Source of the DNA: Prolixibacter bellariivorans ATCC BAA-1284
GTDB lineage: Bacteria > Bacteroidota > Bacteroidia > Bacteroidales > Prolixibacteraceae
Direction of reading: 5' to 3'
DNA: 64,000 nucleotides
Assembly (NCBI RefSeq): GCF_000621705.1
Contig: NZ_KK211332.1
Location: 62,001 to 126,000 of the forward strand
Positions 774-42,736 of the stretch are shown one piece after another. The stretch's first letter is position 1, and each line of letters begins with the position of its first letter. Both the position numbers and the translations under genes were made by a program. Below the pieces are notes generated by a model that was not told where the DNA came from, did not search any database, and saw nothing but the letters and a program-made list of their open reading frames with translations.

Positions 774-3014
774 TTAGATACCTTGCTTATATGGCGTGTT
801 GATGGTTGGATGAATCATGTTTTGGAGTTGCTGTGCGGCATCAGCATTAGCACTTAACAGGCTTTTGAAAAGTGCAATAATGCCTGCTTTATCCAGCTCC
901 GTTTTCGTTTCGGTTTTTATATTCCGTAAATCGATGAAGAAACCGGAATACAGCGTAGGCTGATCGGTAACAATCTCCGTATTCAGAAAATTAACGGCGT
1001 TGTAAATCTGATGATAATTCCCTTTTGTTTTCCGGATAACGAAAGTGTCGTTTCTCAAATTGGTAATCGTAGCATACTTCTCACATTGCTGAACACAGCT
1101 ACCATCCATTTTAGTTTTATGACATCCGGTTACCTGATGAAACAAACACTGTCTGTTCGTCATTAATTCGATTGGGTGAAAGATGCTGCAGTACAATTTG
1201 AAATCTTCAGGTACTTTTATCGACATCCGCTGTTCTTTACTTATCTCATTGGAAAGAAATGCGCCGGAACAGTTGAAACTTTCCTTTAAACATCGCAGGC
1301 TATAGGAATTCGCACTATTCAGGTAGGGCCCGGCTATCCAGGAAATCCCTCTTTTCCAGGCTTCAAAAGCGATGCCTGTATTGTTGGTTACAATACGTTT
1401 TGGTTGCAACTCATCAAGAAATTCTAAGGCTGCCTCATAATCGTCACCGATTAATACGGACGGGAACCATGGTATTAGTTTTGTATGCTTTTTAAACAGG
1501 TCGATAAACCCGGTATTTCCCTTTTTGAAACGATTCGGAAGCTGAAAGTAAACATCTATTGAGGCATCATCACAAATGTCCACATCGGCGGGCGATGATA
1601 TCAACACGGAAAGAGCAGGCTTACCTGGGTTCTTCTGTTTCTTTAAAACCGGAACATTTACAGGGGCAATCATTTCTCTCGAACCATTCAATATGAACAG
1701 TACTCTTTTTTTAATCGACGTGAGTTCCTTAAAAGGCAGATAGAGCGCCGTATCGAAATCAAGCTCCATATGCCTGATGAAATATTCCGTATCATTTATC
1801 GCTTTCAGTCTCTTCAGTATCATCTTGCGATCGATAGCTTCGGTACCAACATCGACCAGGTTAACCGATGAAAGTACATCAAATGATGTGTCCGCAGTTT
1901 CAACCGATACTTTTAACGGAGCGCCGCACTTCCCGGAAATACGTATTGTTAGGGGAAGCTTCGCTGTATCAAATTGTTCTATTTCATTTTTAATGTACGC
2001 CCTGAGATTTTCCTTTTCGTCGTTATACTCCGCTAAGCCCTTCTTCCTTTCATCTTCTGAAGAATAATGATTCACATTCAAAAAGTGTTGGGTTGAATGA
2101 CTCATCGGATTATCAATAAACATGTCCCGATGAATTTCGCCTTTTAAGAAACCGTTTGTGAAATCGCGGTTAAACACCTTGTAAAGCTCGCTGTTGTCAT
2201 CAATCAGACTGTTTTTCTCATAAAAGTGATGAAGCTGTTTTCTCCAGGCATTCACCACCCGATACACGTATTCAAACTCCTTAATCCGCCCTTCAATCTT
2301 GAGTGAGTCAACCCCTGCATCATACAATTCCCGTAAATCGAAATAAGCCGAATTATCCTTCATGTTAAGCGGGTACTCTTTACCGGCAGCGGTTTTTACA
2401 TATTTTTCCCGACAGGGCTGACTGCATCGGCCCCGATTCCCCGAGTTCCCTCCATGAACCGAACTCATATAACAGAGGCCCGAAAAAGAGATGCAATAGG
2501 AACCATGAACAAATACTTCGGTTAGGACACCGTTGGCATGTGCGACAGCCGTCAACGCTTCAATTTCATGAATAGCTAACTCTCGTGAGAGATTAACCCG
2601 CTCGGCATTCAGTTGACGTAAAAACTGGATTTGACCTCGATTATGGGTGGTCAGTTGCGTCGATGCGTGTATATTGAGCCCTTTGAAATATTTCGACAAC
2701 AGATGAAAGACACCTAAGTCCTGAACAATCACCCCATCGATAGCTGTATTAACTAATCGATTCAGCAACTTGACAAGCGCCGGAATTTCACTATCCAACA
2801 CAATGATATTGAGCGTTAGGAAAACCTTGCAACTGTTTTTATGCGCTAATCGTACAATTCCCTGCAAATCTTCGAAGCTGATATTTGCTGCCCGGTTTCT
2901 CGCATTAAATTTACTCAAACCACAGTAAACAGCATCGGCCCCGGCAAGAATTGCCGTTTTTATGGAATCAATATCCCCTCCAGGTGACAGCAATTCAATT
3001 TTTCTTTTCATCAT
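774..3014 (-). CDS. U32 family peptidase-like protein (RlhA-like)
   Basis: 746 residues. N-terminal barrel starts with KIELLSPGGDIDSIKTAILAG and ADAVYCGL. The U32 cysteine region GLCYMSSVHGG...GRCSQPCR is near residues 178-200, and a second cluster (CLFHQVTGCHKTKMDGSCVQQC) lies near the C-terminus; together these fit the four-cysteine iron-sulfur site of U32 RNA-hydroxylation proteins. E. coli RlhA makes 5-hydroxycytidine in 23S rRNA; other members modify tRNA or are annotated as collagenases. The N-terminal half resembles RlhA most, but substrate is not proven. Two adjacent ATGs exist; the second (3011) has a GAAGA upstream. The gene lies after an attC-like element and runs into the GH43 stump, so it is the last unit of island A. 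Confidence 0.8.
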   Translation of the reverse strand: MMKRKIELLSPGGDIDSIKTAILAGADAVYCGLSKFNARNRAANISFEDLQGIVRLAHKNSCKVFLTLNIIVLDSEIPALVKLLNRLVNTAIDGVIVQDLGVFHLLSKYFKGLNIHASTQLTTHNRGQIQFLRQLNAERVNLSRELAIHEIEALTAVAHANGVLTEVFVHGSYCISFSGLCYMSSVHGGNSGNRGRCSQPCREKYVKTAAGKEYPLNMKDNSAYFDLRELYDAGVDSLKIEGRIKEFEYVYRVVNAWRKQLHHFYEKNSLIDDNSELYKVFNRDFTNGFLKGEIHRDMFIDNPMSHSTQHFLNVNHYSSEDERKKGLAEYNDEKENLRAYIKNEIEQFDTAKLPLTIRISGKCGAPLKVSVETADTSFDVLSSVNLVDVGTEAIDRKMILKRLKAINDTEYFIRHMELDFDTALYLPFKELTSIKKRVLFILNGSREMIAPVNVPVLKKQKNPGKPALSVLISSPADVDICDDASIDVYFQLPNRFKKGNTGFIDLFKKHTKLIPWFPSVLIGDDYEAALEFLDELQPKRIVTNNTGIAFEAWKRGISWIAGPYLNSANSYSLRCLKESFNCSGAFLSNEISKEQRMSIKVPEDFKLYCSIFHPIELMTNRQCLFHQVTGCHKTKMDGSCVQQCEKYATITNLRNDTFVIRKTKGNYHQIYNAVNFLNTEIVTDQPTLYSGFFIDLRNIKTETKTELDKAGIIALFKSLLSANADAAQQLQNMIHPTINTPYKQGI

Positions 3015-3033
3015 TCTTCAGCGTGAGGTAATT

Positions 3034-3228
3034 GGCATTAACGGTTTGGCCATGTGGAGTGTGGGCTTTCGAAGCACTTCACTTTTCCCAAATGCCCGGG
3101 ACACGGAGCCAATTCGTTTATTCAATATTTCAAATTTTTCGTCAATCATCAAAGACGAATTGGCGGTGTTGCAACAAACAACTACAATTGGATTGCCCGC
3201 TGACACCCACATTACATTTTGTTGAACG
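3034..3228 (-). repeat. attC-like element A4, subfamily III
   Basis: Imperfect palindrome between the LytR gene and the U32 gene. On the minus strand it opens TTCAACAAAATGTAATGTGG and closes CCACATGGCCAAACCGTTAA. Inside, CGCCAATTCGTCTTTGATGA and ACGAATTGGC form the inner arms. The same arms, in the same order, occur in element B1 (39213-39404). Twenty bases separate its end from the U32 start. Confidence 0.75.
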
Positions 3229-3380
3229 AACCCTAAAGGTAGCAAAAGTGCCCAGGCTCCAATACCTTTAAGGTTCATACGAAACCAATATATCATGAAA
3301 AAAGCCCCACGTTAATGGAGCACGCTTGTATTTCACTCCCACCCTAACATGAAGAATTCAAGACCATATAGAACAACCTT

Positions 3381-4145
3381 TTAATCAAAGTCTAACCATC
3401 TTTTAAACTGGGATGATTTCTCCTGACTTACAATTATATCTCCGTAAAATTCAGGATTCAGTTTAACCAGCAACTTGCTTTTCGAATACACATCTGTTGA
3501 CCTGATGGCCTTTATATTTACAATTAGCTTCCTGTTGGCCCTGAAAAACTGTCGTGGCTGCAAGATTCTTTCCAGTTCATCCAGTGAATATTCAACAATA
3601 AATTTGTTCTTATCAAAGGTTGTTAAAAATACCAGTTCATCGCGGTGGAAGTATGCTACATCATTAGTATCGATTGCAAATAACTTATTACGGGATTTAA
3701 CAAGAAAACGCTCTTTGTAATTTGTTGTCTCAACGGTGTTGTTCCCTATTAACTGTTTAAGTTTATGTAATATATGATCGTCAATTGTTGCATGAAACGC
3801 TTTAAATTTATCCAGACTTTGATTCAGGCGTCCCTGCTTAAAAGGTTTTAGCAAGTAATCTACACTATTGGCTTCAAATGCCTGAATGGCGTATTGATGA
3901 TAAGCAGTTGTAAAAATAATTGGAACTTTAAGGTCAATTTGCTTAAACAGCTCGAATGACAATCCATCGGATAAATAAATATCGAGAAATAGCAAATCGG
4001 GCATATTGTTTTTTTCAAACCAGTTGATTGCATCTTTTATACTGGTAACCCATCCCGAAATTTCAATCTCCGGATCGTACACTTTAAGCATCGATTCCAG
4101 GTTTTCAAAGGCTGCTTTTTCATCTTCTATGATTAATACTTTCAT
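3381..4145 (-). CDS. LytTR-family response regulator
   Basis: 254 residues. Receiver domain at the N-terminus with acidic pocket IIEDE and phosphoacceptor Asp55 (LLFLDIYLSDG), switch Thr in FTTAYH and conserved Lys in LLKPF. The C-terminal ~100 residues (KERFLVKSRNKLFAIDTNDV...FFRANRKLIVNIKAI) are a LytTR DNA-binding domain, which binds tandem direct repeats. It overlaps the upstream kinase gene by 26 bp, so the two are translationally coupled. Its partner is the LytS-type kinase and the likely signal comes through the TonB receptor at the head of the operon; target promoters cannot be read from the window. Confidence 0.92.
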   Translation of the reverse strand: MKVLIIEDEKAAFENLESMLKVYDPEIEISGWVTSIKDAINWFEKNNMPDLLFLDIYLSDGLSFELFKQIDLKVPIIFTTAYHQYAIQAFEANSVDYLLKPFKQGRLNQSLDKFKAFHATIDDHILHKLKQLIGNNTVETTNYKERFLVKSRNKLFAIDTNDVAYFHRDELVFLTTFDKNKFIVEYSLDELERILQPRQFFRANRKLIVNIKAIRSTDVYSKSKLLVKLNPEFYGDIIVSQEKSSQFKRWLDFD

Positions 4146-5196
4146 AGTTCTCTACATCAATTAATGGAACTTTTACGACAAACTCAGTATCGTTATTCAT
4201 TATTGAAATTTCTTTGTTAATCAGGTATCTATAGCGATTATTCAGATTCTGCAACCCCACCCCTGTTGCGTTTTTTTGAACGTTTTTAGCTGTTATGTTA
4301 TTTTTAATGACCAGTTCGTTGTTGTTTGCTACAGAAACTGAGAACATGAGCTTGTTGTGCAAATCCAACTTATTATGTTTTAAGGCGTTTTCGGCCAATA
4401 TTTGCATCGTTAGTGGTGGAATATGCTTATCCATAAGTTTTTCAGGAACGTTCACATTAAATTCAAATGCATCGCCAAATCTCTTACCTATCAGAAATGC
4501 ATAATCGCGTGCAAAATCCAGTTCCTTTTTTAGTTCAATTAATTCGTTGTTCTCATTCTCCAGTACATAACGATAAATGTCAGCTATTTTCAAGAGATAG
4601 TCTTTCGCCAATTCCTTGTCCTTGTCAATTATATTATAAAGGGTGTTTAACGTATTGAATAAAAAATGCGGGCTGAGTTGCTTTTTAAGGGAGTGAAATT
4701 TAGCTTCTGCATTTTCTTTTTTAAATCGTTCCATTTTAATAAGCGAGTTTCTCAGGTTTTTGTTTGTTTCGTACAGAGAAACTGCCAGCACAACAATAAA
4801 TGAATAGCAAATTGCAACAAGATTAGTAGTTAGCAAATCAAAAAATGTAATTATCACTTTATCGTCGGACGCAAATGCCAGCATCAGAAAAATACCGGAT
4901 GCACTTACGAGGATTAGTACAAATATTATATCGACACTGACCTGAACAAGAATACGATGCAAATTACTTTTTGAAAAATTTTCCCGATTTTTAATATATG
5001 AATTAATGAAAAACAAGCCTTCAGTTAAAATTGCGGTTGATACAATCGTTCCTATATGTTGTGACAGGCTGTATTCTTTTGGATAGTCGTAATAAATCTG
5101 GAATATGAAATTGATTGTAATGTACAACAAACTACCTGCTACCAAATAAAACAGGACTTTAAGCAAAATAATATTTTGTTTACGAATTGTTTCCAT
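4120..5196 (-). CDS. LytS-type sensor histidine kinase
   Basis: 358 residues. Several hydrophobic segments fill residues ~10-145 (about four to five membrane passes, no large extracytoplasmic sensor). A short coiled region leads to the His_kinase motif KKQLSPHFLFNTLN with phospho-acceptor His177, then a HATPase region (ILAENALKHN; GVGLQNLNNRY). This is the family that pairs with LytTR regulators. Its ATG shares one base with the TonB-receptor stop codon (TAATG), and its 3' end overlaps the regulator gene. Confidence 0.92.
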   Translation of the reverse strand: METIRKQNIILLKVLFYLVAGSLLYITINFIFQIYYDYPKEYSLSQHIGTIVSTAILTEGLFFINSYIKNRENFSKSNLHRILVQVSVDIIFVLILVSASGIFLMLAFASDDKVIITFFDLLTTNLVAICYSFIVVLAVSLYETNKNLRNSLIKMERFKKENAEAKFHSLKKQLSPHFLFNTLNTLYNIIDKDKELAKDYLLKIADIYRYVLENENNELIELKKELDFARDYAFLIGKRFGDAFEFNVNVPEKLMDKHIPPLTMQILAENALKHNKLDLHNKLMFSVSVANNNELVIKNNITAKNVQKNATGVGLQNLNNRYRYLINKEISIMNNDTEFVVKVPLIDVENYESINHRR

Positions 5197-7553
5197 TAAA
5201 ATTCTATCTTATAGTTAAAGACCGGAACCATTCCCAAATTATAAATATGTCTGATTTCATCATTGTAAAAGTCGTAATAATTACGTTGAATATTTTTACG
5301 ATTTGTGGCATTCTGAATATCTAACGAGAAAATATGCGCTGTATTTTTTCTGTTTATCCTAAAGCTTGCGCTTACATCAATTCTGAAATAATGCGGCAAC
5401 TGCTTTGTAAACCGCTCTTTCTGAACAACAATAGTGCGTTCCTGTTCTTTTGTAGCTACTTTATCTATCGGGGTGTAACGCTGGCCTCCGGCATACACCG
5501 CTTTTGCATTTAGTCCAAGAATTTTATTATTCTTGCTTCCCATGTAGAATTCCTTTCCACCGAGAATATTAAAGGCATAATTTGAATTGTACTGTGTATT
5601 ATACCATTTCATGTCGGCTGCCCTGAATTTTGAATTGAACAATGAAGCGGTAATCATAAAATAATATGAGTTGCTAAAACTTTTTTCAAGCGTTAGCTCA
5701 ATACCATAATTTCGTCCAATGCCACTACTCTTAAGCGAATCTGAGTTCCAGCCATCCCATTTTTGACTAATGGTTGAAAACGTGCTGTTAGGATTAACTG
5801 CTATAGGTACATTGTACAAATGTTGGTAGTACACTTCAGATTTAAACATAAGGTTGTTGGCTATAGCATTGTTGTAACTTAAAACAAAATGAGCTGTTTT
5901 TTTCAGTTTTAAGTTCTTATTCGGATAACTATATTCCGTTTCGTTTACAGGAATACTCATGAAATAAGCAATTAATTCCTCATGACGGCTATATATTCCG
6001 CTGGCAAACCCGATACTCTGCTTGGGTGTGAATGACCATTCGATAGCAAATTTGGGCTCGAGAGAATGTGAGTTACCCAGATTCATATAAGAATAAGCCA
6101 ATCCAAAGTTTGCTGTAATGGATTTACTTAAGCGGTATTTGTTTTGATTAAATACATAATAGTACCACGAATTTCCTTTTTTATTGATGTTGGATTCTAA
6201 CTTCCCCGATTTTCTTTCATTTGCCATCATATTGAAGCCAATATAACTATAATTGAAACCAAATCTTGAGGTTAGTTTTGAATTAAACTTTCTATTTACA
6301 AAAGAAGAAAACCTAAGCGCATAATTATTAAACCTGTCTTCATAAATTTTATGAAGGATATAATCATTGTTAAGCTCGAAAACATTGTCCTGGCTGTAAT
6401 TCCCTGAAACTGAAAGGACCGACTTTATATATGATTCTTTTCCAATATGAGAAAAGTGTGTAACTCCGCCGGCACCCATACCGGTTTTAAAATAGTCTTT
6501 TTTATTGCTGTCCCAGCTATTCCATAGCGTAGAATCGGCAATGGCATCTGCACTTTCTGTATTGCTGTTTCCGCCTATGCCCCAGATTGAAAAAGTGCCT
6601 GCTTTTTTAGTTGGAAAATTAAGCTTGAAAGATAAATCCTGGTAATGAGGTGTTTCATCTCCCATTACATCAACACCAATTTTTTTTAAAATACTAAGAG
6701 TTGAATACCTGTAATTAATAAGATAAGATGATTTACTGTTTTTATTAAATGGCCCTTCAGTTGTTAAATCAGTACCTAATGCACCAAATTGAAAAGCATT
6801 TTCGTTTCTGTCCGAATTGCCATTTCTTAGCCTAATATCAAATACCCCGGAATAAGCATTATTGAATTCGGCAGGGAATGCCCCGGTATAAAAATCGGAA
6901 GTACTTAACATATTGGCATTTAAAATGCTTACAAACCCTGCGGCATATCCTTCCTCGGCGAAATGGCTTGGGGCAGGAATCTCTACGCCTTCCAGCCGCC
7001 AAAGCAAGCCGTTGGGTGAATTTCCCCTGATAATAATTTGGTTGGTAGCATCATCGCTACTGGTAACCCCTGCATATGATTGTGCCATTCTGCCTGGATC
7101 GCTTATACTGGCAGCATATCTTTTGGTTTCTTCTACCGAAAAAGATTTTGAACTCAGTGTTGCCATTTCATTCAACGCCTTATTCTTTTTAGAAGCAACA
7201 ACCTTTACTTCATTCAAACTGGTAATCGATTCGGTTAATTTTATTTCGAGATATACTTCTTTTGCAGAGCCAACCATTATGTCGGGGATGGTCACGGGTT
7301 CGTATCCTATAAAGTTTACCCGGATTGTCTGCCGACCAACAGGTACATTTTCTAAATAAAACATTCCCTCACTATTGCTGGTACATCCTTTCAGCGGCTC
7401 TGTTCCCAAAATGACAATAGTTGCTCCGGGTAGTGGTTGTAATGATTCACTATCCAGTATTTTTCCTTTAATTGTTTGAGTAATTTCCTGACTATAGCAA
7501 TTTGTTGATAAAACTAAGGTGAAAAAATAAAAAACGTATCGCATCATTTTCAT
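5196..7553 (-). CDS. TonB-dependent outer-membrane receptor with carboxypeptidase-regulatory-like domain
   Basis: 785 residues with signal peptide (MMRYVFYFFTLVLSTNCYSQ), then a CarboxypepD_reg-like domain (~23-110: IKGKILDSESLQPLPGATI...), a plug domain (~125-240: DPGRMAQSYAGVTSSDDATN...LWRLEGVEIPAPSHF) and a long beta-barrel ending NYKIEF with the aromatic C-terminal residue typical of outer-membrane proteins. No SusD partner accompanies it, unlike the SusC at 19949-23353, so glycan uptake is less likely than peptide, metal or other small-ligand uptake or sensing. It heads a three-gene operon with LytS and LytR. The DNA is AT-rich compared with the xylan locus, in line with acquisition. Confidence 0.9.
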   Translation of the reverse strand: MKMMRYVFYFFTLVLSTNCYSQEITQTIKGKILDSESLQPLPGATIVILGTEPLKGCTSNSEGMFYLENVPVGRQTIRVNFIGYEPVTIPDIMVGSAKEVYLEIKLTESITSLNEVKVVASKKNKALNEMATLSSKSFSVEETKRYAASISDPGRMAQSYAGVTSSDDATNQIIIRGNSPNGLLWRLEGVEIPAPSHFAEEGYAAGFVSILNANMLSTSDFYTGAFPAEFNNAYSGVFDIRLRNGNSDRNENAFQFGALGTDLTTEGPFNKNSKSSYLINYRYSTLSILKKIGVDVMGDETPHYQDLSFKLNFPTKKAGTFSIWGIGGNSNTESADAIADSTLWNSWDSNKKDYFKTGMGAGGVTHFSHIGKESYIKSVLSVSGNYSQDNVFELNNDYILHKIYEDRFNNYALRFSSFVNRKFNSKLTSRFGFNYSYIGFNMMANERKSGKLESNINKKGNSWYYYVFNQNKYRLSKSITANFGLAYSYMNLGNSHSLEPKFAIEWSFTPKQSIGFASGIYSRHEELIAYFMSIPVNETEYSYPNKNLKLKKTAHFVLSYNNAIANNLMFKSEVYYQHLYNVPIAVNPNSTFSTISQKWDGWNSDSLKSSGIGRNYGIELTLEKSFSNSYYFMITASLFNSKFRAADMKWYNTQYNSNYAFNILGGKEFYMGSKNNKILGLNAKAVYAGGQRYTPIDKVATKEQERTIVVQKERFTKQLPHYFRIDVSASFRINRKNTAHIFSLDIQNATNRKNIQRNYYDFYNDEIRHIYNLGMVPVFNYKIEF

Positions 7554-7742
7554 TATTCTTTAAATATTTAAACCAAAAAAAGAATAATGTGAAATGACGA
7601 TAAAGAGAGAATCCTTGAAACCGGAAAAAAACTATATAGAACCGAATTTTCAAGGCATAAACAAAAAATGGTATTAATCACCAATAAGAATGAATTTTTC
7701 GTGGGACCGGATTATTGAGCACCTAAAAGGTTTCTTACACTC

Positions 7743-7876
7743 GCATGCAACGTTTAGTATATGAATACTAGCCGACTGCGTGGCACTTACCTGCCAAACT
7801 ACAAGAAAGCCGAAGCGGTCTGAAGCCCTTAAAACACGACTGTATCGGCCATTATTTTTATACATTGTTTTGCGTT
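7743..7876 (-). repeat. attC-like element A3, subfamily II
   Basis: Nine bases after the methyltransferase stop codon. Minus strand opens CAAAACAATGTATAAAAATA and closes CATATACTAAACGTTGCATG. The core (TAATGGCCG ... CAGACCGCTTCGGCTTTC ... CGGCTAGTATT) matches elements B2 and B4, which carry AATAGCCGG ... TGTAGCCCGCTTCAA ... CGGCTACTATT. A 63-codon frame through it (7674-7865) is not a gene. Confidence 0.75.
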
Positions 7877-7884
7877 CGTACTTT

Positions 7885-8646
7885 TTATTTCTTAGTCAAT
7901 TTGCATATCATAAAATCGCTTTCCTGAATATCAAATTTACCATATGAATAGTCTCCATAAATTGTTGTGATTTCCATATCTGTTTTCGAAATCATTTCTC
8001 TCAATGAGCCTAATCGGATTGGTTTAAAATTTATTTCTAAATACCTTTTCTCTGTCATTATGTTCTCAGAATTATAAATCTCATAAAACTGATAACCAGA
8101 AACAATATTCTCTTTCTCATTGTAATGATTTGTGTATGACAGAACCATTTCTTTGTCTTTGTCAACAGAAAATTTTCCTATAACCCTCATCTTTCCATCT
8201 GCCTGTTTCAGTCTGTTTTTTGGGTTTTGCAAAGTCAAAATAAAAGTCCCTCCCGTTTCAAGGTGGTCTGAAATACATTTTAACGCTTCTTGTTGTTTTT
8301 CTGTTGTTAATATTTCGCTTAGAGAATGAAAAGGTAATATTATCAATTCAAATTTTTTATTAAGCTTAAGATTAGTCACATCCATTTCCACTAAGTCAAC
8401 AGAATAACCTTCATTGTTAATTTTTTTATTGAATGAATTAAGCATTCCTTTTGAATAATCGACGCAGGTCATTTTTCTGCCAGATTTTAACAGTGGGATT
8501 GAAACACGTCCAGTTCCACACATTAATTCCAAAATTTCTTTGCCAAATCCTTCTGTTTCTTTGAGGAAAAATGGAATATCAAAATCTACATTGACATAAA
8601 AATCATATATGTCAGCGACTTTATCAAATTTTATAGTTTCTTTCAT
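7885..8646 (-). CDS. Class I SAM-dependent methyltransferase
   Basis: 253 residues, Rossmann-type methyltransferase. Motif I is ILELMCGTGRVS (residues 38-49), followed by an acidic loop (MTCVDYSKGML), motif 'VEMDVTNL' and LIILPFHSLSEI as motif IV. The C-terminal half (TGGTFILTLQNPKNRL...) is the usual small-molecule methyltransferase fold. The substrate is not recognisable. It is the single gene between two attC-like elements in island A, with a start about 29 bp after the preceding element and a stop 9 bp before the next one. Confidence 0.9.
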   Translation of the reverse strand: MKETIKFDKVADIYDFYVNVDFDIPFFLKETEGFGKEILELMCGTGRVSIPLLKSGRKMTCVDYSKGMLNSFNKKINNEGYSVDLVEMDVTNLKLNKKFELIILPFHSLSEILTTEKQQEALKCISDHLETGGTFILTLQNPKNRLKQADGKMRVIGKFSVDKDKEMVLSYTNHYNEKENIVSGYQFYEIYNSENIMTEKRYLEINFKPIRLGSLREMISKTDMEITTIYGDYSYGKFDIQESDFMICKLTKK

Positions 8647-8674
8647 TTTTTTCCAGGGTCTTTGTTAGTATGAC

Positions 8675-8832
8675 GCACAACGGCTGGTACATGTTGTCGG
8701 GGCGTTCCGATACTTCGGAATCGGAGAGCGTTCCTGTCCGAAGGACACGGAACTGCGAAACGAGCCCCGAAGCTTCGGGCGCAATTGGCGTACCACCGAA
8801 CCCCGCCCTGCAATATGTACTTTATTAGCGGC
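8675..8832 (-). repeat. attC-like element A2, subfamily I (GC-rich)
   Basis: Minus strand opens GCCGCTAATAAAGTACATAT and closes CATGTACCAGCCGTTGTGCG. The inner part is a series of nested hairpins: CGAAGCTTCG, GTGTCCTTCGGACAGGA and TTCCGAAGTATCGGAA. Outer arms GTACATATTG and CAACATGTAC pair but leave unpaired bases on one side, as the extrahelical bases of attC sites do. Nearly the same sequence appears as element B3 (40957-41104), in the opposite chromosomal orientation and the same orientation relative to its gene. Confidence 0.8.
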
Positions 8833-8840
8833 TGGCATTT

Positions 8841-9320
8841 TTATTCTTTCTTTAAGTATGGATTAAAAGCTATTTCCCAAAGATTTCCATCAGGGTCTGC
8901 AACATAACTGCTATATCCACCCCAAAATACTTTCTGGGGTTCCTTTACTATCTTAACTCCTTTGTCACTTAGTGATTTTATTAAATCGTCAACGTCCTTC
9001 TCGCTCCAAACATTATATGAAATAGTAAATCCTTTGAATCCATTACCAGTTGAATCGATAGTCGCATCTTTAGCTAATTCTTCTCTTGAATACAAAGCAA
9101 TATGAATTCCGTTTAATTGGTACAAAATCAAGTTGTCATTACTCATTTCCGAACGTTTCCAACCGAATTTATTTTCATAAAAATCTATGGAAGTTTTTAA
9201 GTCATTTACCCCCAATGTCATAAAAGTTATTCTTTGTTCCATCTTAATATCATTTTTGTTTTGTCCAAAACTATTTGTTGTTATTAAAATTAATATGCTC
9301 AATAAACCGATGATTTTCAT
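8841..9320 (-). CDS. VOC-family (glyoxalase/bleomycin-resistance-like) protein with export signal
   Basis: 159 residues. The VOC module starts at MEQRITFMTLGVNDLKTSIDFYE and ends VADPDGNLWEIAFNP, two babbab units typical of glyoxalase-like, metal-binding proteins. What is unusual is the preceding stretch MKIIGLLSILILITTNSFGQ, a plausible Sec signal peptide; most VOC proteins are cytoplasmic. A second start at the internal MEQR (25 codons on) would give a normal cytoplasmic protein. The gene follows MmcQ/YjbR by 17 bp on the same strand, so the pair forms one two-gene unit between elements A1 and A2. Confidence 0.85.
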   Translation of the reverse strand: MKIIGLLSILILITTNSFGQNKNDIKMEQRITFMTLGVNDLKTSIDFYENKFGWKRSEMSNDNLILYQLNGIHIALYSREELAKDATIDSTGNGFKGFTISYNVWSEKDVDDLIKSLSDKGVKIVKEPQKVFWGGYSSYVADPDGNLWEIAFNPYLKKE

Positions 9321-9337
9321 AAGTTTTATTTTAAGGT

Positions 9338-9706
9338 TTACATTTTTTGTCTGTCAAGCATCTCTTTTTGAACCGATTTACTTAATGAGGACAACACTAA
9401 CTGATAGGACTGATTTATCATTTCTTTTAACACTTCATCAGGCACATCTCCATTCAAATCAACGGAGTTCCAATGGCTTTTATTCATATAATAGCCTGGT
9501 CTAATACATGAATATTGGTTTCTCAATGAGAGACCTAAAGATGGCTCACTTTTTAACGTGATTATATTCCGTCCGTCTTTGTCAACACATATGGCTGCAA
9601 ACATTTTATCCATTATAAGGAATCTATGCCATTGCCATTCAGTTTTAAAGTCCCGTGTTACACTATTTTTGGTCATTAGATAATCTTCAATCCATTTATG
9701 TTTCAT
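9338..9706 (-). CDS. MmcQ/YjbR family protein
   Basis: 122 residues, matching the size and pattern of the CyaY-like-fold MmcQ/YjbR family: KTEWQWHRFLIMDKMFAAICVDKDG near the N-terminus, ITLKSEPSLGLSLR in the middle, then the signature PGYYMNKSHWNSVDLNGDVPDEVLKEMINQSYQLV. The family is thought to bind DNA, but its role is unknown; members are frequent on mobile cassettes. It starts about 47 bp after element A1. Confidence 0.9.
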   Translation of the reverse strand: MKHKWIEDYLMTKNSVTRDFKTEWQWHRFLIMDKMFAAICVDKDGRNIITLKSEPSLGLSLRNQYSCIRPGYYMNKSHWNSVDLNGDVPDEVLKEMINQSYQLVLSSLSKSVQKEMLDRQKM

Positions 9707-9752
9707 AAAATAGTCCGTTTAGAATTGCCTGTTTCACTGTGTGTGTATGCTT

Positions 9753-9888
9753 GCCGCTAACGGTGGTGGTATGAGGTCGTGGCGGTCAGACGAGAGTCTG
9801 AGTGTCCGACCGAAACTGGGGTTGGGACGAGATTCGACTTGTCGAATCCGCACTGCCCAGCCATGCCTTATACCACGTGTTAGCACTC
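9753..9888 (-). repeat. attC-like element A1, subfamily IV
   Basis: Minus strand opens GTGCTAACACGTGGTATAAG and closes ATACCACCACCGTTAGCGGC. The outer boxes GCTAAC and GTTAGC are exact inverted repeats and resemble classical attC ends best of all elements here. It contains a perfect internal palindrome (GATTCGAC-TT-GTCGAATC at 9831-9848). It lies 9 bp after the DUF1287 stop codon. Confidence 0.75.
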
Positions 9889-9896
9889 GTATTTTT

Positions 9897-10481
9897 CTAT
9901 ATTTCATATTGGTAATGTCCAATTATTTTGTAGCTAAATAAACAGTCCTCAAGAACCTGTCCACCACCAATGTTATGAACCATTAAATATCGTTGTCCAT
10001 CAGTTGATTTCAGTCTAGTTACGATTCCAATATGAGTTATTCCTCCTCCTAGGTTCCAACAAACAATATCTCCTGGTTGATAGTCTTGCGGATTGTCTGT
10101 AATTGTCATTACTGTACCATGTCTTGTGAAAAATGTCATTAAATTTGGAACTCGTCTATGGTCAATATTTTTGTCAGGATGTGATAGCCCCCAATTTTTA
10201 GGATACTTGTCAAAATCTAATTTCATGTCCTCATGAACTTCTTTTTGTAAGTCAATACCGAGTTTTCTGTAAGCTCTAATTACAACATCTGTACAAACTC
10301 CTTTGTCTGCAGGAACATCTCCATTTGGGTATGCTATTACTCTATATGTCGGGTCATAAGTGACTTTATGATGTGTCAGAACTAGTGCTGAGTCAGCAAG
10401 TCTTTGATAAAAATTTGTCTGTCCATTGGCAAGACCAAATGTCAGAAAAAAAATAAATATGAGTATGTGTTTCTTTTTCAT
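9897..10481 (-). CDS. DUF1287-domain secreted protein
   Basis: 194 residues: signal peptide (MKKKHILIFIFFLTFGLANGQ), then the DUF1287 domain, an NlpC/P60-like cysteine-hydrolase fold. The likely catalytic residues are Cys in DKGVCTDVVIRAYR, His in GGGITHIGIVT and a polar residue in YLMVHNIGGG. E. coli YijF is the better known relative. A role in cell-wall peptide hydrolysis or amidase activity is inferred from the fold. It is the first unit after the recombinase tail in island A; the box CGTTAGCAC sits just upstream of its start (10488-10496). Confidence 0.88.
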   Translation of the reverse strand: MKKKHILIFIFFLTFGLANGQTNFYQRLADSALVLTHHKVTYDPTYRVIAYPNGDVPADKGVCTDVVIRAYRKLGIDLQKEVHEDMKLDFDKYPKNWGLSHPDKNIDHRRVPNLMTFFTRHGTVMTITDNPQDYQPGDIVCWNLGGGITHIGIVTRLKSTDGQRYLMVHNIGGGQVLEDCLFSYKIIGHYQYEI

Positions 10482-10543
10482 AATATGAGTGCTAACGTAT
10501 GTATATATCGCATATATATTTCGGCTTGCAATGTCTTGTAAAC

Positions 10544-10750
10544 CTATGTTTTATATTTCAAAATTAAGTCTAACGGACTTTTTATTTTTGCAAGAGATTT
10601 AGTGCTCACGTGGGTGTAAATCTCTGTTGTTGTACAAGATTTAAATCTCGATATACTTCGGTCAGTTTTCATTTGTTGGTTGTTATGGCTCATCAAGTTA
10701 ATAAAAAACTTCCTGAATTTGGTTCTCAGTTCCTTTACGGATTCCCATTT
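10544..10750 (-). pseudogene. Tyrosine recombinase (integron-integrase-like) 3' remnant, island A
   Basis: Open minus-strand frame of 68 codons without a usable start. The last 30 codons read TTTEIYTHVSTKSLAKIKSP then LDLILKYKT: the extreme C-terminus of a tyrosine recombinase with the catalytic Tyr in IYTHV, very like integron and phage integrases of Bacteroidota. Upstream of that, where box II Arg and the LGH motif should be, the frame is unrelated (KWESVKELRTKFRKFFINLM...) and no integrase is present beyond it. The same truncation at the same codon is found at 38005-38229. After the stop, 60 bp of AT-rich sequence (attI position) leads to the first cassette gene. Confidence 0.75.
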
Positions 10751-10777
10751 TCAATTATCATAATTTTAGTTCGCATA
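10625..10777 (+). repeat. Inverted repeat arm bracketing the xylan locus, left copy
   Basis: About 150 bp that recur, reverse-complemented and with roughly nine differences by eye, at 38005-38157. The repeat starts inside the recombinase tail at TTGTTGTACAAGATTTAAAT and runs to TTCGCATA; weaker similarity continues another ~50 bp through a GGTCGG...CCGACC segment. Plus-strand ORFs through either copy are spurious. Confidence 0.85.
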
Positions 10778-11891: not shown

Positions 11892-12971
11892 TTATTTTTT
11901 ACCATCAATGGTTTGAATAGAACCATCTTTGTTGTATTTCAGCTCGGTTACCTTAACACTTCGCAACCAGGTTTTCCCGCCGGATAATCGGGCATCGTGA
12001 TAAAACAAATACCACTTTCCTTTAAACTCGACAATTGATTGATGGGTGGTCCAACCGACCACCGGAGTCAAAATTACACCCTGATAGGTAAACGGTCCGT
12101 AAGGATTATCTCCGGTGGCGTAGCAAAGTTTGTGTGTATCGCCTGTTGAGTAGGTGAAATAGTATTTCCCGTTGTATTTGTACATCCAGGAAGCTTCAAA
12201 GAAACGACGGTCGTGATCTCCGGCCAACAGTGGCTTTCCGTTTTTATCCAGAATCTGTATCGTCTTCGGTGCTTCAGCAAATTGAAGCATATCGTCACTC
12301 ATCCGTGCTACCTGGGGGCCTAACGCCGGTTTGTTATCGGCCGGCTCTTTACCGCACTCAATGGCTTTTCCATTACGGTAACGCTGCAGCTGTCCGCCCC
12401 AGATTCCACCAAAATACATGTAATATTTTCCATCGTCATCTTTGAATACGGCCGGGTCGATGCTAAAGCTGCCCCGGATGGGATCAGGCTCTGCTTTAAA
12501 CGGACCTTCTGGTTTGTCACTGACTGCAACACCTATCCGAAAAATGTCGGTCTTGTCTTTAGCAGGAAAATAGAGATAGTATTTTCCGTCTTTTTCTGCC
12601 GCATCAGGAGCCCACATTTGACGTCCCACCCACGGAACACTATCCTCATCAAGAACGACTCCGTGATCGGTAACCTTTCCGTCGATGTTATCCATTGAGA
12701 ACACGTGGTAATCGCGCATGGCGAAATGATCGCCGTTGTCATCTTGCGGAATGCCGGCATCGATATCATGCGAAGGATAAACATAGAGTTTTCCGTTAAA
12801 AACATGGGCCGATGGATCGGCGATGTAGATATCTTTTACCAAATACCGGGTTCCCCCCTCACTTACTTTCTTATCAGATTGCTCTGACTTATGCCCGTTG
12901 CTGAACGCCATCAAAACAAGTGATGTTGCGACAACCGCAAACGCCATTCCCTGTAATACGTATTTTTTCAT
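11892..12971 (-). CDS. Glycoside hydrolase family 43 (beta-xylosidase / alpha-L-arabinofuranosidase)
   Basis: 359 residues; N-terminal signal (MKKYVLQGMAFAVVATSLVLMAFS). Five-bladed propeller with the three GH43 acidic residues: Asp in YIADPSAHVF (general base), Asp in SIDPAVFKDDDGKYY (pKa modulator) and Glu in RFFEASWMYKYNGKYY (general acid). Single catalytic domain, no CBM. It lies downstream of GH115 on the same strand as the last gene of the sus operon, so it should act on xylo-oligosaccharides or arabinosyl side chains in the periplasm or at the surface. A truncated paralogue survives at 629-773. Confidence 0.93.
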   Translation of the reverse strand: MKKYVLQGMAFAVVATSLVLMAFSNGHKSEQSDKKVSEGGTRYLVKDIYIADPSAHVFNGKLYVYPSHDIDAGIPQDDNGDHFAMRDYHVFSMDNIDGKVTDHGVVLDEDSVPWVGRQMWAPDAAEKDGKYYLYFPAKDKTDIFRIGVAVSDKPEGPFKAEPDPIRGSFSIDPAVFKDDDGKYYMYFGGIWGGQLQRYRNGKAIECGKEPADNKPALGPQVARMSDDMLQFAEAPKTIQILDKNGKPLLAGDHDRRFFEASWMYKYNGKYYFTYSTGDTHKLCYATGDNPYGPFTYQGVILTPVVGWTTHQSIVEFKGKWYLFYHDARLSGGKTWLRSVKVTELKYNKDGSIQTIDGKK

Positions 12972-37787: not shown

Positions 37788-38004
37788 TTTTGGATACCAG
37801 GAGCCTGTTTAAAGAACGCTTCGTGTTCGTTCCGGGCAAACAAAAGAAAGCCTCCGGCCTCCGTGCTCCACTGTTCCAACCTTCCGCTAAAGTTTCCGTT
37901 TTCTGTCCTGATAACGAATGAGTTTTTAACTTAAGTAAAAAATATGTTTTGTGCCAAAAATTTTGACGAACGGCCCGATTTCTTCCATGAACGGTCGGAT
38001 CTGA

Positions 38005-38157
38005 TATGCGAACGAAAATTATGATAACCTAAAATGGGAATCCGTAAAGGAACTGAGAACCAAATTCAGAAAGTTTTTTATTAACTTGATGAGCCATAAC
38101 AGCCAACAAATGAAAACTGACCCAAGTATATCGAGATTTAAATCTTGTACAACAACA
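38005..38157 (-). repeat. Inverted repeat arm bracketing the xylan locus, right copy
   Basis: Reverse-complement partner of 10625-10777, about 94% identical by eye. It begins within a stretch of TATGCGAACGAAAATTATGA and ends in the TACAACAACA of the recombinase tail. Outside it, weak similarity extends to about 37948 (an inverted CCGACCGTTC...GGGCCGTTCG segment). Confidence 0.85.
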
Positions 38158-38229
38158 AAGATTTATACACACGTAAGTAACCGTGCATTGCAAAACATTA
38201 AAAACCCATTTGATGATCTCAAAATATAA
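38005..38229 (+). pseudogene. Tyrosine recombinase (integron-integrase-like) 3' remnant, island B
   Basis: Open plus-strand frame of 74 codons without a credible start. The end reads TTTKIYTHVSNRALQNIKNP then FDDLKI: a tyrosine-recombinase C-terminus with the catalytic Tyr in IYTHV. It is a diverged homologue of the island A tail (TTTEIYTHVSTKSLAKIKSP), while the DNA upstream of the joint is nearly identical in the two islands. Box I/II residues and the LGH motif are absent. Downstream, a CTAGTTAGGGC box (38295-38305) sits 23 bp before the first cassette gene, at the expected attI/cassette boundary. Confidence 0.75.
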
Positions 38230-38327
38230 GATACCAAAGGTACACATAACACTCCCGTATGGGAAATATCTGTTACTTTTAGTACACATATAAACTAGTT
38301 AGGGCAAATTATAAAATATAAAAACCA

Positions 38328-39200
38328 ATGGCACTAAAACCTGATTTGATAAGCTTTTTTCTAAGGAATATTCAAGGAGCAAATATGCAAACTTTCGGAA
38401 GTGAAGTTGCGCATTTGTTTGAACATTTAGACAATGAAATAAAAGATAATCCCATTTATAATTTCTATCAACAAGAAAGAGAAAAATGGAAAAATTGGCC
38501 AGGTGAGAACACAAGTCATTGGAGTCTACCAACAAAATTTGAAGATGCTAAATCATTGGTTTATGACTTATATAGAACCGTCGGAGAGCAGGGGGAAAAT
38601 GGATATAATTTACCGATGAATTTAACTTATATTTCTCATGGTGATATCAATGACTCAATAAGCAATTTTAATAGCCAATTTATTGAATACTTCCAAGAAG
38701 TTTTACAAGAAATTGTAAACGCAAATCCAGAGATTGAAAAAGATACAATAAAAAAAGTAACTGGTGATACTGTTTTTATTGTACATGGTCATGACAATGA
38801 GTTAAAGACTGAACTACAATTATTACTTACGAGGGCTGGAGTAAACAACATTGTCTTACATGAGCAGGCCGACAAGGGGCGTACAATTATCGATAAATTG
38901 GTTGAAGAGTCATCGGAGTCCAATTACGCTATTGCTTTGTTGTCACCAGACGACAAATTGGAAGATGGTTCTACCAGAACAAGACAAAATGTGATTTTAG
39001 AAATTGGATATTTCATTGGTCAATTGGGGAAAGAAAGGGTTCGATTATTAAAAAAGGGTGACACTGAAATACCCTCTGACTTACAAGGGATATTATATGA
39101 AAATTATGACTCAGCAGGTGCATGGAAGATGAAAATTTGTAAGGAATTAATTGCTGTAGGCATTTTTGTTGATATAAAGAGTATTGCAAGTACGTTGTAA
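38328..39200 (+). CDS. TIR-like nucleotide-binding effector
   Basis: 290 residues. The C-terminal half (~147-280) is a TIR-like domain (the 'predicted nucleotide-binding, TIR-like' family also found as effectors in Pycsar/CBASS-type defence): DTVFIVHGHDNELKTELQLL, HEQADKGRTIIDKLVEESSE with Glu193/194 as candidate catalytic acid, YAIALLSPDD, RTRQNVILEIGYFIGQLGKERVRLL. The N-terminal ~140 residues are helical with no known domain. Such proteins usually degrade NAD+ when triggered. No cyclase gene is adjacent, so the trigger is unknown; a stand-alone anti-phage cassette is likely. First gene after the recombinase tail, where cassette expression is normally highest. Confidence 0.85.
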   Translation: MALKPDLISFFLRNIQGANMQTFGSEVAHLFEHLDNEIKDNPIYNFYQQEREKWKNWPGENTSHWSLPTKFEDAKSLVYDLYRTVGEQGENGYNLPMNLTYISHGDINDSISNFNSQFIEYFQEVLQEIVNANPEIEKDTIKKVTGDTVFIVHGHDNELKTELQLLLTRAGVNNIVLHEQADKGRTIIDKLVEESSESNYAIALLSPDDKLEDGSTRTRQNVILEIGYFIGQLGKERVRLLKKGDTEIPSDLQGILYENYDSAGAWKMKICKELIAVGIFVDIKSIASTL

Positions 39201-39212
39201 GAAAAATAACTT

Positions 39213-39404
39213 GTGCTAACAAAAGCTATATGTAATGCGGGATTCAGCGAGTATTTTAACTGCAGTTCTTCGTAACAACAACGCCAATTCGTCTTTGATG
39301 ATTTGGCTATAAAAACAAAAATATGAATATACGAATTGGCTCAGTGGCAACCTGATTGTGAAACGTTTCAAAGTCCCGCACTCCACATAGCCAAACCGTT
39401 GGGC
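39213..39404 (+). repeat. attC-like element B1, subfamily III
   Basis: Opens GTGCTAACAAAAGCTATATG and closes CATAGCCAAACCGTTGGGC; the last seven bases GTTGGGC satisfy the GTTRRRY rule exactly. Outer arms pair ATGTAATGCGGGA with TCCCGCACTCCACAT (with bulges), inner arms pair GCCAATTCGT with ACGAATTGGC. Shares the order and sequence of arms with element A4. Confidence 0.78.
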
Positions 39405-39469
39405 ATAATAGTGACTTGCTGCGCCGAATTCAATAAGATATCTGTGAACTAAAAACAAAATTTACGTTT

Positions 39470-40216
39470 ATGAAAAAAGCTTTACTAATCTTTATCCTCT
39501 TTTTGAATATTTCATCTGGAGTTGGACAAGTGATTAAACGAGACTCAATTAATTTAACTACAAGAATTATTGAACTTGAATCAAAAATCGTTAATCTTGA
39601 ATCTCAAGTCCAAATTTTGAATGAACGTAAAGACTACTTTCAGAATACTTTATCTGAACAGACTAACAAATTTTCATTAATTATTGGAGCAATAATTTCT
39701 ATAATAGGATTATTAACTTTCACTGGTTACAAATATGAGATTAAGCGGGTTAAAAAAGCTTTTGAATCATTGATTAATAATAGAGAGAAAGAACAAAAGG
39801 ATTTTAAGCAGAAAGTATATAAGCTTCTAACAAAAACCTATAAATCGTCAGCAAATAGTAACACGATGATTTCTGAAGAATTTGCAAATTCAGGGATTTT
39901 TATTGGAAGTTTCATCCATAAACTAATTACTGCAAAAAACCTAAATGACTTATATGAAGTCATACATCTGTTAGAATCTGAAAAAAAAGTAAAAGAAAAG
40001 GATTTAATTGATTGCAAAGAATCACTCATAGTAAACCTTATGGATGCTCAAGAATTGTTCAACAAACAGATTAATCTTGATATTAGAAATACCCTAGTAA
40101 TTAAAGAAAGAGAGAGAGAAATTTTTTACTACTTGGATGAGATATCAAAATCTGAAATTGATGATGCAAGAAACGAAATATCAAAAATAAGAGCAGATAT
40201 ACTAAGGTTTAAATAA
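39470..40216 (+). CDS. Hypothetical coiled-coil membrane protein
   Basis: 248 residues, family not recognised. Signal-like start (MKKALLIFILFLNISSGVGQ), a coiled coil at ~27-62 (IIELESKIVNLESQVQIL), one membrane helix (FSLIIGAIISIIGLLTFTGY, ~71-90), then a cytoplasmic helical region rich in Lys and Glu that runs to the C-terminus. Very AT-rich, like the rest of island B. It starts about 65 bp after element B1 and stops 8 bp before B2. Anchored coiled-coil proteins without known domains are common in phage-defence cassettes, but nothing here proves that role. Confidence 0.75.
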   Translation: MKKALLIFILFLNISSGVGQVIKRDSINLTTRIIELESKIVNLESQVQILNERKDYFQNTLSEQTNKFSLIIGAIISIIGLLTFTGYKYEIKRVKKAFESLINNREKEQKDFKQKVYKLLTKTYKSSANSNTMISEEFANSGIFIGSFIHKLITAKNLNDLYEVIHLLESEKKVKEKDLIDCKESLIVNLMDAQELFNKQINLDIRNTLVIKEREREIFYYLDEISKSEIDDARNEISKIRADILRFK

Positions 40217-40224
40217 ACTACTAT

Positions 40225-40357
40225 GCCCAACAATGTATAAAAATAATAGCCGGTTCAGTAGTAAATTCAAGAGTTGTAGCCCGCTTCAACTTTTGTGTAA
40301 CTTGACAGGGTTGAAGCCCGCAAACGGCTACTATTCTTATACAAACCGTTGTGTGCC
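40225..40357 (+). repeat. attC-like element B2, subfamily II
   Basis: Opens GCCCAACAATGTATAAAAAT, whose first seven bases GCCCAAC fit RYYYAAC exactly, and closes TTATACAAACCGTTGTGTGC. Central arms TGTAGCCCGCTTCAA and TTGAAGCCCGC, then AATAGCCGG with CGGCTACTATT. Nearly the same layout as B4 and A3. Confidence 0.78.
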
Positions 40358-40406
40358 ATGTTAAATGACTCTTGTTTCATTGACAATTTGTAAAAATCAT
40401 TAAAAT

Positions 40407-40928
40407 ATGAGAATACTTTCAGGCAAAATTGAAGATAGAATGCTACATATCGGTTATTATCAAATAGTCGGTGGACTATTAGGACTGATTCTAACATTAA
40501 GAACATTTATTTATGAAAGCACCTTAAGTGGACTTTCATTACTCTTTTATGTTGTAGCAATATTGCTATTTGTCTTTTCAATATACTCCGGCAACTTATT
40601 GAGGAAAAAAAATATAAAAGGACTTTACCTTTCAACCTGGAATCAGGTTCTTCAATTAATTCAGATTTCGATATCGGCATTTGGATTCGAATATTATTCC
40701 GGTGTATTCTTTAACATAGGTTTTGAGTGGACAGAGAAATTTATTCCAGATTTTAATTTTGGACTTTCCGGATGGATTCTAAGGTATACGGAAAACGATT
40801 TAAATCACAATTCAGTTTACATCAACTTAATACCTATTTTAATTTTATATTACATCAACAAAACTCGACATGAAATTGAGGAAAGAAAACAATTAATTGA
40901 ATCTGCTGAAAAAATAAATCAGGAATGA
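40407..40928 (+). CDS. Hypothetical multi-spanning membrane protein
   Basis: 173 residues, no recognised family. About four hydrophobic segments: near 12-25 (IGYYQIVGGLLGLIL), 38-58 (LSGLSLLFYVVAILLFVFSIYSG), 78-97 and 144-154 (YINLIPILILYYI), then a charged C-terminal tail (KTRHEIEERKQLIESAEKIN). AT-rich and flanked on both sides by attC-like elements. Function unknown. Confidence 0.72.
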   Translation: MRILSGKIEDRMLHIGYYQIVGGLLGLILTLRTFIYESTLSGLSLLFYVVAILLFVFSIYSGNLLRKKNIKGLYLSTWNQVLQLIQISISAFGFEYYSGVFFNIGFEWTEKFIPDFNFGLSGWILRYTENDLNHNSVYINLIPILILYYINKTRHEIEERKQLIESAEKINQE

Positions 40929-40956
40929 ATTTAATGAGAATAAAAATAAAACACGG

Positions 40957-41104
40957 GCACACAACAACGTACATATTGCAGGGCGGGGTTTGGTGGTACG
41001 CCAACTGCGCCCCGAGGCTTCGGGGCTCGTTTCGCAGTTCCGTGTCCTTCGGACAGGAACGCTCTCCGAAATCCGCCCCGACAACATGTACCAACCGTTA
41101 TGCC
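40957..41104 (+). repeat. attC-like element B3, subfamily I (GC-rich)
   Basis: Opens GCACACAACAACGTACATAT and closes CATGTACCAACCGTTATGCC. Contains CCCCGAGGCTTCGGGG and GTGTCCTTCGGACAGGA hairpins. By eye more than 85% identical to the reverse complement of A2 (8675-8832) over its length, which makes it the best pair for showing that both islands draw on one element family. Confidence 0.82.
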
Positions 41105-41138
41105 GCAATTAGGTGCAACACGGTATAGACATTAAAAA

Positions 41139-42734: not shown

Positions 42735-42736
42735 AA

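Follow-up and report, generated by a model that had tools for sequence, protein, structure and literature searches.

Two gene islands of Prolixibacter bellariivorans are very likely the decayed remains of an integron-like system for gene capture whose integrase is not IntI

We analyzed a window of 64,000 nucleotides from Prolixibacter bellariivorans (G000:C2:62001-126000, in a draft genome of 5.15 Mb and 21 contigs), in which two islands, A and B, consist of gene units separated by long palindromes. Judging from their sequence, both islands are very likely arrays, now decayed, of a gene-capture system of Bacteroidota that resembles integrons but has as its integrase a tyrosine recombinase other than IntI. 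The sequence shows that the cassettes are discrete and have one orientation per window island, that the insertion point is a GTT by a non-IntI integrase, and that differing arrays stand behind near-identical platforms, a platform being the stretch ahead of the GTT where a tyrosine recombinase C-terminus, decayed to varying degrees, is followed by an attI-like stretch. Both arrays of the window look like remnants, because the genome yielded only truncated integrase genes of the array type.

Island A (774-10753, minus strand) is made of five gene units separated by four imperfect palindromes, which we treat as attC sites. The order is U32 peptidase, A0, response regulator with histidine kinase and carboxypeptidase-regulatory protein, A1, methyltransferase, A2, glyoxalase with YjbR, A3 and DUF1287, and the boundary between glyoxalase and YjbR is without a palindrome. 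Four further imperfect palindromes (B1 to B4) lie among the gene units of island B (38.0-42.9 kb, plus strand). Both islands begin at a truncated tyrosine recombinase with an attI-like site, and within each of them all attC sites have a single orientation. The original prediction, made from the letters of the window, had described the five units and four palindromes of island A correctly down to their positions, and the uniform direction that it reported is borne out in each island. It had also placed the head of the array at the C-terminus of a tyrosine recombinase: a C-terminal remnant is indeed there, but it is just an open stretch of 42 codons (10544-10672) and not a recombinase gene.

A covariance model of the palindromes (R1), as proposed in the original prediction, was trained on 30 sites from this genome and its relatives. 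Because MAFFT aligned the eight window elements poorly by themselves (11 invariant columns), arms were scored by a script and relatives were added; on block-shuffled DNA the script gave no match at a score of 34 or more in 38.8 kb. Results showed that R1 recovers all eight window elements (E 8.7e-32 to 6.3e-4 for the 64-kb window), four of which (A0, A2, B1 and B3) are outside its training set, and that elsewhere in the 64 kb it finds nothing besides an antisense echo of B2. At E 1e-3 the whole genome holds 47 matches in 21 clusters, 12 with at least two sites and nine with one. Three of these matches are in island A and four in island B; the weakest site, A0, is absent from the whole-genome matches and was detected at window scale. 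The consensus of the 30 sites, read on the bottom strand, has an attC-like topology, with an outer R box carrying invariant AAC and GTT, an unpaired spacer (columns 12-16), an L box, a helix of 17 pairs and a variable center. Compensatory changes occur at 16 of 22 consensus pairs, and the spacing from AAC to GTT is mostly 119-123 bases, some sites being near 150 or 180.

The bottom strand was more stable than the top in 26 of the 30 sites (mean difference 2.7 kcal/mol), a count that is biased because the training set was picked mostly by bottom-strand score. In the same biased set, bottom strands held 102 G.T pairs versus 7 A.C pairs, with three positions being G.T in 26-29 of the 30 sites, and a bulged base was present in just part of them. 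Strand asymmetry seems to rest mainly on these conserved G.T pairs. Six window sites folded singly gave variable bottom-strand z-scores (-0.36 to -4.72).

We also looked at the ends of the cassettes. If cassettes were circles at one time, the R'' box should complement the bases after GTT at the start of its own cassette, which lie hundreds to thousands of bases away, beside another palindrome. In 24 consecutive attC pairs from nine arrays, 123 of 144 positions were complementary between R'' and its own cassette start, compared with 54 of 144 between R'' and the opposite box of its own hairpin; permuted starts gave a mean of 53.5 (standard deviation 6.9), and none of 20,000 permutations reached the observed match. 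The six positions matched completely in 18 of the 24 pairs, in one case with GTTCTACG, and the six window pairs tested matched at 6, 5 and 3 of 6 positions in island A and at 6, 6 and 3 of 6 in island B. Moreover, the ten bases from GTT onward in the attI of island A are the reverse complement of the A3 R'' box. No whole cassette common to two loci with both ends at GTT was found among the 60 longest of 275 pairs. As a separate observation, loci L052 and L053 (G003:C1:425000-464999) of a same-genus relative hold tandem copies, 2509 bp long and 97% alike, of an IS91-type element that encodes a tyrosine recombinase of its own; several of the attC sites in these loci have a common R'' box, TTAAGTTCAAC, the end of the IS91-type element, as if attC were its target.

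The 300 bp preceding island B recur in the genome: a 331-bp query gave 15 matches at 14 places, including that of island A and two partial ones (C3:176039 and C6:15868). At nine of the 11 other attI copies, similarity ends at GTT or one base further on, with the query extending 30 bases more, and of the remaining two one continues to 329 and one ends at 291. Ten of the 14 platforms are followed, no more than 4 kb downstream, by a same-strand cluster of attC sites. A promoter-like TANNTTGR was found in 12 of 13 remnant platforms versus 12% of shuffled pieces, a chance rate that is somewhat understated considering that the pieces shuffled had 270 bases and the stretch searched 400. Several of the integrase copies of this genome appear to have been shortened by in-frame internal deletions. 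The remnant is in frame with a start codon at six platforms (island A, L007, L009, L012, L013 and L018), and such a start codon in frame after an internal deletion was noted for 10544-10672, 38110-38229, L009, L012, L013 and L018. The in-frame remnants could be due to selection for translation up to attI, or to chance.

The original prediction had expected that related strains would break precisely at the GTT box, and such breaks were seen. Genomes G034 and G017 are 97% identical over 3077 bp of integrase and attI, and unrelated after ...AAACGAGTT. In three same-locus pairs within the genus, platforms of P. bellariivorans and of its sister species G001 and G002 are 89-95% identical over 1567-1585 bp and break at GTT, and two platforms of G003 (99.6% identity over 1363 bp) diverge at most 5 bases past GTT. 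The insertion point is the GTT at the attI adjoining the integrase, a resolution that stops short of the single bond because both sides have GTT bases in common. In addition, G001 and G002 share with island B a collinear upstream stretch of 1.5 kb (about 90%), and the counterpart of island B in G002 (L158; 90.6% over 1495 bp) has the same leader and the start of a full integrase gene, within which the G002 contig terminates.

No intact array integrase was found in the P. bellariivorans genome, either by Pfam (five recombinases) or by the integrase profile (none at 1e-60), and the word "degenerate" in the original prediction was therefore apt. An intact gene is present in G003 (L045), with 386 codons ending NRALQNIKNPFDDLKI followed by a nearly identical attI, and the C-terminus of the island B remnant matches this integrase. 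The remnant of island A shares a C-terminal motif with the intact 398-residue integrase of another relative, G033 (L037), which represents a second integrase type.

The word "variant" also holds, as the intact relatives encode a tyrosine recombinase without the IntI-specific insertion. The spacing from K-R to H-x-x-R is 58-63 residues in 36 new integrases, 63-66 in two Xer proteins and 100-101 in five IntI (36 of 37 new rows and two of three Xer rows, the remainder being without the motif pattern), and the new integrases are without about 40 residues of the IntI insertion. In most of them an N-terminal domain of about 80 residues precedes SAM-like and catalytic domains; L040 and a few others are without the N-terminal domain. 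Four new integrases scored 194.3, 204.6, 208 and 220 bits against TIGR02249, in two pieces and below the curated cut-off of 265, and 206-226 bits against NF040815 (cut-off 220), an NCBI family whose name, "site-specific tyrosine recombinase/integron integrase", is a label and no test. In a tree of 61 rows IntI formed one clade (100/100) with the new integrases outside, a clade status that covers the IntI rows only. The 37 "new" rows of this tree were chosen by hand and are not all loci, five of six IntI rows were used (L022 gave no open reading frame [ORF]), L132 is a long row, and several "other2" rows are of odd composition.

A predicted integrase model (mean predicted local distance difference test score [pLDDT] 81.5, predicted template modeling score 0.51) is closest to XerA 4a8e and Vibrio IntI4 2a3v. 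The N-terminal domain alone (pLDDT 86) has its best Foldseek match in the HARP domain of SMARCAL1, 4o66 (probability 0.92, weak E of 0.055). Weak matches to Pfam HARP (PF07443) were obtained at E of 1 or less for three of 22 whole proteins (best 0.012; sub-cut-off where shown) and for one of 16 N-terminal pieces (E 0.0013), and a sequence search of the PDB with the N-terminal domain gave nothing useful. HARP binds branched DNA. We see the scales as evenly balanced on a wider proposal, that Bacteroidota hold a second integron lineage, whose Xer-like recombinase, devoid of the IntI insertion, would read folded single-stranded attC by another route, perhaps with a HARP-like N-terminal domain and with conserved G.T pairs replacing extrahelical bases.

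Searching GTDB contigs with the integrase alignment turned up at least 587 related stretches, of which the best 80 loci were analyzed. By their titles, 56 are Bacteroidota (Flavobacterium, Algoriphagus, Chitinophaga, Saprospiraceae, Bacteroidales and others), one is a "bacterium" and 23 belong to other phyla or archaea (Spirochaetota, Bacillota, Pseudomonadota, Acidobacteria, Patescibacteria or archaeal records). At E 0.01, R1 gave 79 matches in these loci, which were outside model building. In 76 of them, spread over 23 loci, the site is downstream of the integrase and the orientation chosen by the model is that of the integrase; the other three are two upstream matches in L118 and one antisense echo. 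Palindromes scattered at random or variable cassette ends were not encountered in the compared genomes. Among the matches listed (136 of attC, own genome excluded, and 118 of the integrase, lower scores excluded), 24 of 29 attC/integrase pairs within 30 kb were downstream and codirectional. Divergent arrays of classical layout with a new integrase occur in G390, G067 and G424 (four divergent pairs).

Across 198 Bacteroidia genomes, R1 attC sites were found at E 1e-5 in 138 (92 of 121 genera) and IntI above cut-off in two. The integrase profile matched in 108 of the genomes at E 1e-60 and in 101 at 1e-70, the second count being given because some of the matches at 1e-60 are other recombinases without the N-terminal part. 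Using 1e-70, 91 genomes have both, 47 attC only, 10 the integrase only and 50 neither; as these rows are related genomes, a p value for the table does not amount to a probability. With only 11-16 candidates scored in each genome, surveys of more than 40 genomes give minimum attC counts per genome. As controls, R1 matched in one of 200 Pseudomonadota genomes and in none of 20 genomes reached via loci of other phyla; the sole Pseudomonadota match (L175, G671:C160:11942-12069, 47.6 bits) is a possible cross-phylum cassette. In the whole phylum R1 matched in 138 of 296 genomes and IntI was above cut-off in 85, and by these counts classes outside Bacteroidia hold both attC and IntI. Strong R1 matches outside Bacteroidia were seen in G112, G065 and G344, and because G065 and G344 also have IntI, the latter and the new integrase may share cassettes. 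Plasmids were also represented: 86 records match the integrase at E 1e-40, 12 of them covering at least 80% of it. One Chryseobacterium plasmid has four attC matches (E of 1e-5 or less) downstream of the integrase, a mobilizable Pontibacter plasmid with the integrase has one weak attC match, and a second Chryseobacterium plasmid with the integrase has no R1 match. Phage records gave 18 integrase matches, none covering 80%.

Taken together, the system probably works as follows. A non-IntI tyrosine recombinase, encoded directly upstream of attI and as a rule codirectional with the cassettes, would insert circular cassettes (one or few genes plus an attC palindrome) at the GTT in attI, building up an array; the matching cassette ends and the sister genomes that differ behind the platform point to this. 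Considering the covariation and the strand asymmetry, the recombining strand of attC would be the bottom one, which probably forms an R box, an unpaired spacer, an L box and a variable hairpin. Given that the array reads in the direction of the integrase, expression of the cassettes probably also starts from the integrase promoter, and the N-terminal domain of the integrase might recognize attC. With only truncated integrase copies found in it, the P. bellariivorans genome has probably lost the activity of the system, and, barring a different recombinase in trans, its arrays in the window are probably frozen.

Several points weigh against the gene-capture reading. Cassette recombination itself is deduced from comparison, and the selection of the training set by bottom-strand score biases the count of strand asymmetry. 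Three of the 24 R''/start pairs match at just 1 or 2 of 6 positions, which we ascribe to an IS91-type insertion in one case and, tentatively, to missed sites in two, and two further pairs, both in the window, match at 3 of 6. Furthermore, 56 of the 80 integrase loci are without an attC match, some being short contigs or from other phyla, L118 has its matches upstream only, and 5 of the 29 pairs break the codirectional-downstream rule. Finally, 47 of the 198 Bacteroidia genomes have attC without the integrase at 1e-70, and 10 show the reverse.

We also asked whether the islands could be ordinary clusters of attC sites lacking integron integrases (CALINs), moved by a true IntI in trans, with the neighboring recombinases as bystanders. 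The P. bellariivorans genome and the sister species G001 and G002 do encode a TIGR02249 IntI (356-358 bits), the architecture of attC resembles that of classical sites in the accessible part of PMC8946536, and, phylum-wide, IntI passes its cut-off in 85 of 296 genomes and R1 attC sites also occur outside Bacteroidia. Nevertheless we hold this explanation to be improbable, and IntI in trans was rejected as the main mover, given IntI in 2 versus attC in 138 of 198 Bacteroidia genomes. The attI directly follows the new integrase, and the breaks between arrays begin there; an arm scan of 20 kb around the P. bellariivorans IntI gene (G000:C3:207184-208119; L006:10179-11138; 358 bits) found no attC, and none of the 47 whole-genome matches is there. 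Moreover, the IntI of this genome, G001 and G002 has Lys where that of G011 has Arg (GLKLNE vs GLRLME), which we take to be a catalytic Arg; by this difference the P. bellariivorans IntI may be inactive.

Dispersed palindromic repeats, similar to repetitive extragenic palindromes or miniature inverted-repeat transposable elements, could have settled between genes by chance, and the palindromes are in fact numerous (47 in the genome), fall into sequence subfamilies and form single-site clusters in 9 of 21 cases. Such repeats would account neither for the uniform orientation per window island nor for sites that are mostly downstream of and codirectional with an integrase or remnant platform, nor for complementarity to the far cassette end instead of the near arm, nor for exact breaks at GTT, which makes this origin very improbable. 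Least probable of all is that the palindromes are terminators or RNA elements of operons that resemble attC. Hairpins do stand behind stop codons and are stable in some folded sites, but an Rfam element was rejected, as none matched in the window at the gathering score, and two terminator-like sites in the island B region, where this count was made, are at shuffle level with neither on an attC; terminators also leave the complementarity of the cassette ends unexplained.

The features of both islands are given in Table 1. The genes of cassette 4 encode a carboxypeptidase-regulatory protein, presumably TonB-receptor-like, a histidine kinase and a LytTR response regulator. No closing attC was found in the window after the U32 unit (774-3041). 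A 79-nucleotide direct repeat, 85% alike, flanks island A (647-725 and 11901-11979), its right copy sitting in the end of ORF 11892-12971. The TIR-domain protein of the first cassette of island B (38328-39200) matches the PADLOC candidate family PDC-S35 (2.7e-57).

Table 1. Features of islands A and B in the window.
Feature	Positions	Strand	Remarks
Island A: integrase remnant, 42-codon ORF	10544-10672	-	start region in frame with C-terminus (IYTHVSTKSLAKIKSPLDLI...)
Island A: attI-like site	10494-10543	-	core GTT 10496-10494
Cassette 1: DUF1287 protein (9897-10481) + attC A3	9761-10495	-	
attC A3	9752-9888	- (cassette strand; model match on +)	89.8 bits; training set
Cassette 2: YjbR-like (9338-9706) + glyoxalase (8841-9320) + attC A2	8681-9760	-	R''/start 6/6
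attC A2, R'' box ending AAT	8672-8833	-	49.3 bits; outside training set
Cassette 3: methyltransferase (7885-8646) + attC A1	7751-8680	-	R''/start 5/6
attC A1	7742-7876	-	90.3 bits; training set
Cassette 4 (probable), ends in attC A0	3042-7750	-	R''/start 3/6
attC A0, long degenerate form	3033-3230	-	20.6 bits; outside training set
U32 peptidase gene past A0	774-3014	-	candidate cassette
Island B: platform leader, promoter-like TAACTTGA near 38082, then start codon region	38000-38109	+	
Island B: integrase remnant, 39-codon ORF (...IYTHVSNRALQNIKNPFDDLKI)	38110-38229	+	
Island B: attI, two GTACACATA direct repeats	38230-38300	+	core GTT 38298-38300
Cassette: CAP12/Pycsar-type TIR protein (38328-39200) + attC B1	38299-39398	+	
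attC B1, long form	39211-39407	+	52 bits; outside training set
Cassette: 248-aa protein, no Pfam match (39470-40216) + attC B2	39399-40348	+	R''/start 6/6
attC B2	40222-40357	+	121.7 bits; training set
Cassette: 173-aa protein, no Pfam match (40407-40928) + attC B3	40349-41097	+	R''/start 6/6
attC B3	40956-41106	+	91.6 bits; outside training set
Cassette: 531-aa protein, no Pfam match (41139-42734) + attC B4	41098-42864	+	R''/start 3/6
attC B4	42736-42873	+	105.8 bits; training set

If the gene-capture reading holds, an unmapped pool of cassette genes would exist in a major phylum whose bacteria live in soil, sea and gut, and on plasmids too, with a cargo that includes a TIR-type gene of a candidate defense family. 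The idea that cassette recombination requires the IntI insertion would be challenged and become testable; the necessity of the additional domain of IntI was reportedly addressed by Messier and Roy in 2001. Should the new integrase branch be older than IntI or separate from it, single-strand cassette recombination would have arisen repeatedly or before the IntI insertion. Surveys detect integrons by the IntI-specific domain and standard attC models, according to the accessible parts of PMC9024848 and PMC8352920; in the latter, Ghaly et al. selected IntI via the additional domain, and the former, on IntegronFinder 2.0, states that its earlier study had only In0 elements for Bacteroidetes, to which it adds a complete integron of Salinibacter ruber. 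It names no more than a single complete integron for Bacteroidetes proper, which is consistent with the expectation of the original prediction that standard attC models would probably miss sites of the present kind. The features of attC and the selection of its bottom strand are treated in the part of PMC8946536 available to us, and Bacteroidota are named among integron carriers without detail in the corresponding parts of PMC8618304 and PMC9668308. No prior description of the new integrase as an integron integrase of Bacteroidia was found in the open-access literature, subscription papers and preprints being outside the search, and it seems that a widespread gene-capture machine of Bacteroidota has been overlooked.

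In comparison with known systems, the window arrays resemble CALINs in having at least two clustered attC sites and no intact integrase nearby, with remnants alone beside the arrays, but the absent enzyme is not IntI, and platforms of the sister species carry the new integrase. Integrons with an inverted IntI, of which Treponema is an example, likewise have an integrase that is not divergent. Theirs, however, is a bona fide IntI. Integrons of the inverted type are mentioned in the accessible part of PMC8352920. The new integrases are similar to XerA and NF040815 in their near-cut-off scores and in the closest solved fold, 4a8e, and differ from Xer in adjoining attI and cassette arrays and, mostly, in the extra N-terminal domain. 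Xer enzymes act at dif-type sites. With IntI integrons the system has in common cassettes of one or few genes in one orientation, insertion at GTT, a tyrosine recombinase, attC sites with R and L boxes, an unpaired spacer and a variable terminal structure, and an attI with direct repeats beside the integrase. By contrast, the new integrase is without the insertion of about 40 residues, has an added N-terminal domain and does not fall within the IntI clade sampled. Its gene usually points in the direction of the array, with the 3' end at attI, whereas IntI is divergent with Pc pointing outward, and the asymmetry of its attC sites, with their AAC-to-GTT spacing of mostly 119-123, seemingly comes mainly from conserved G.T pairs.

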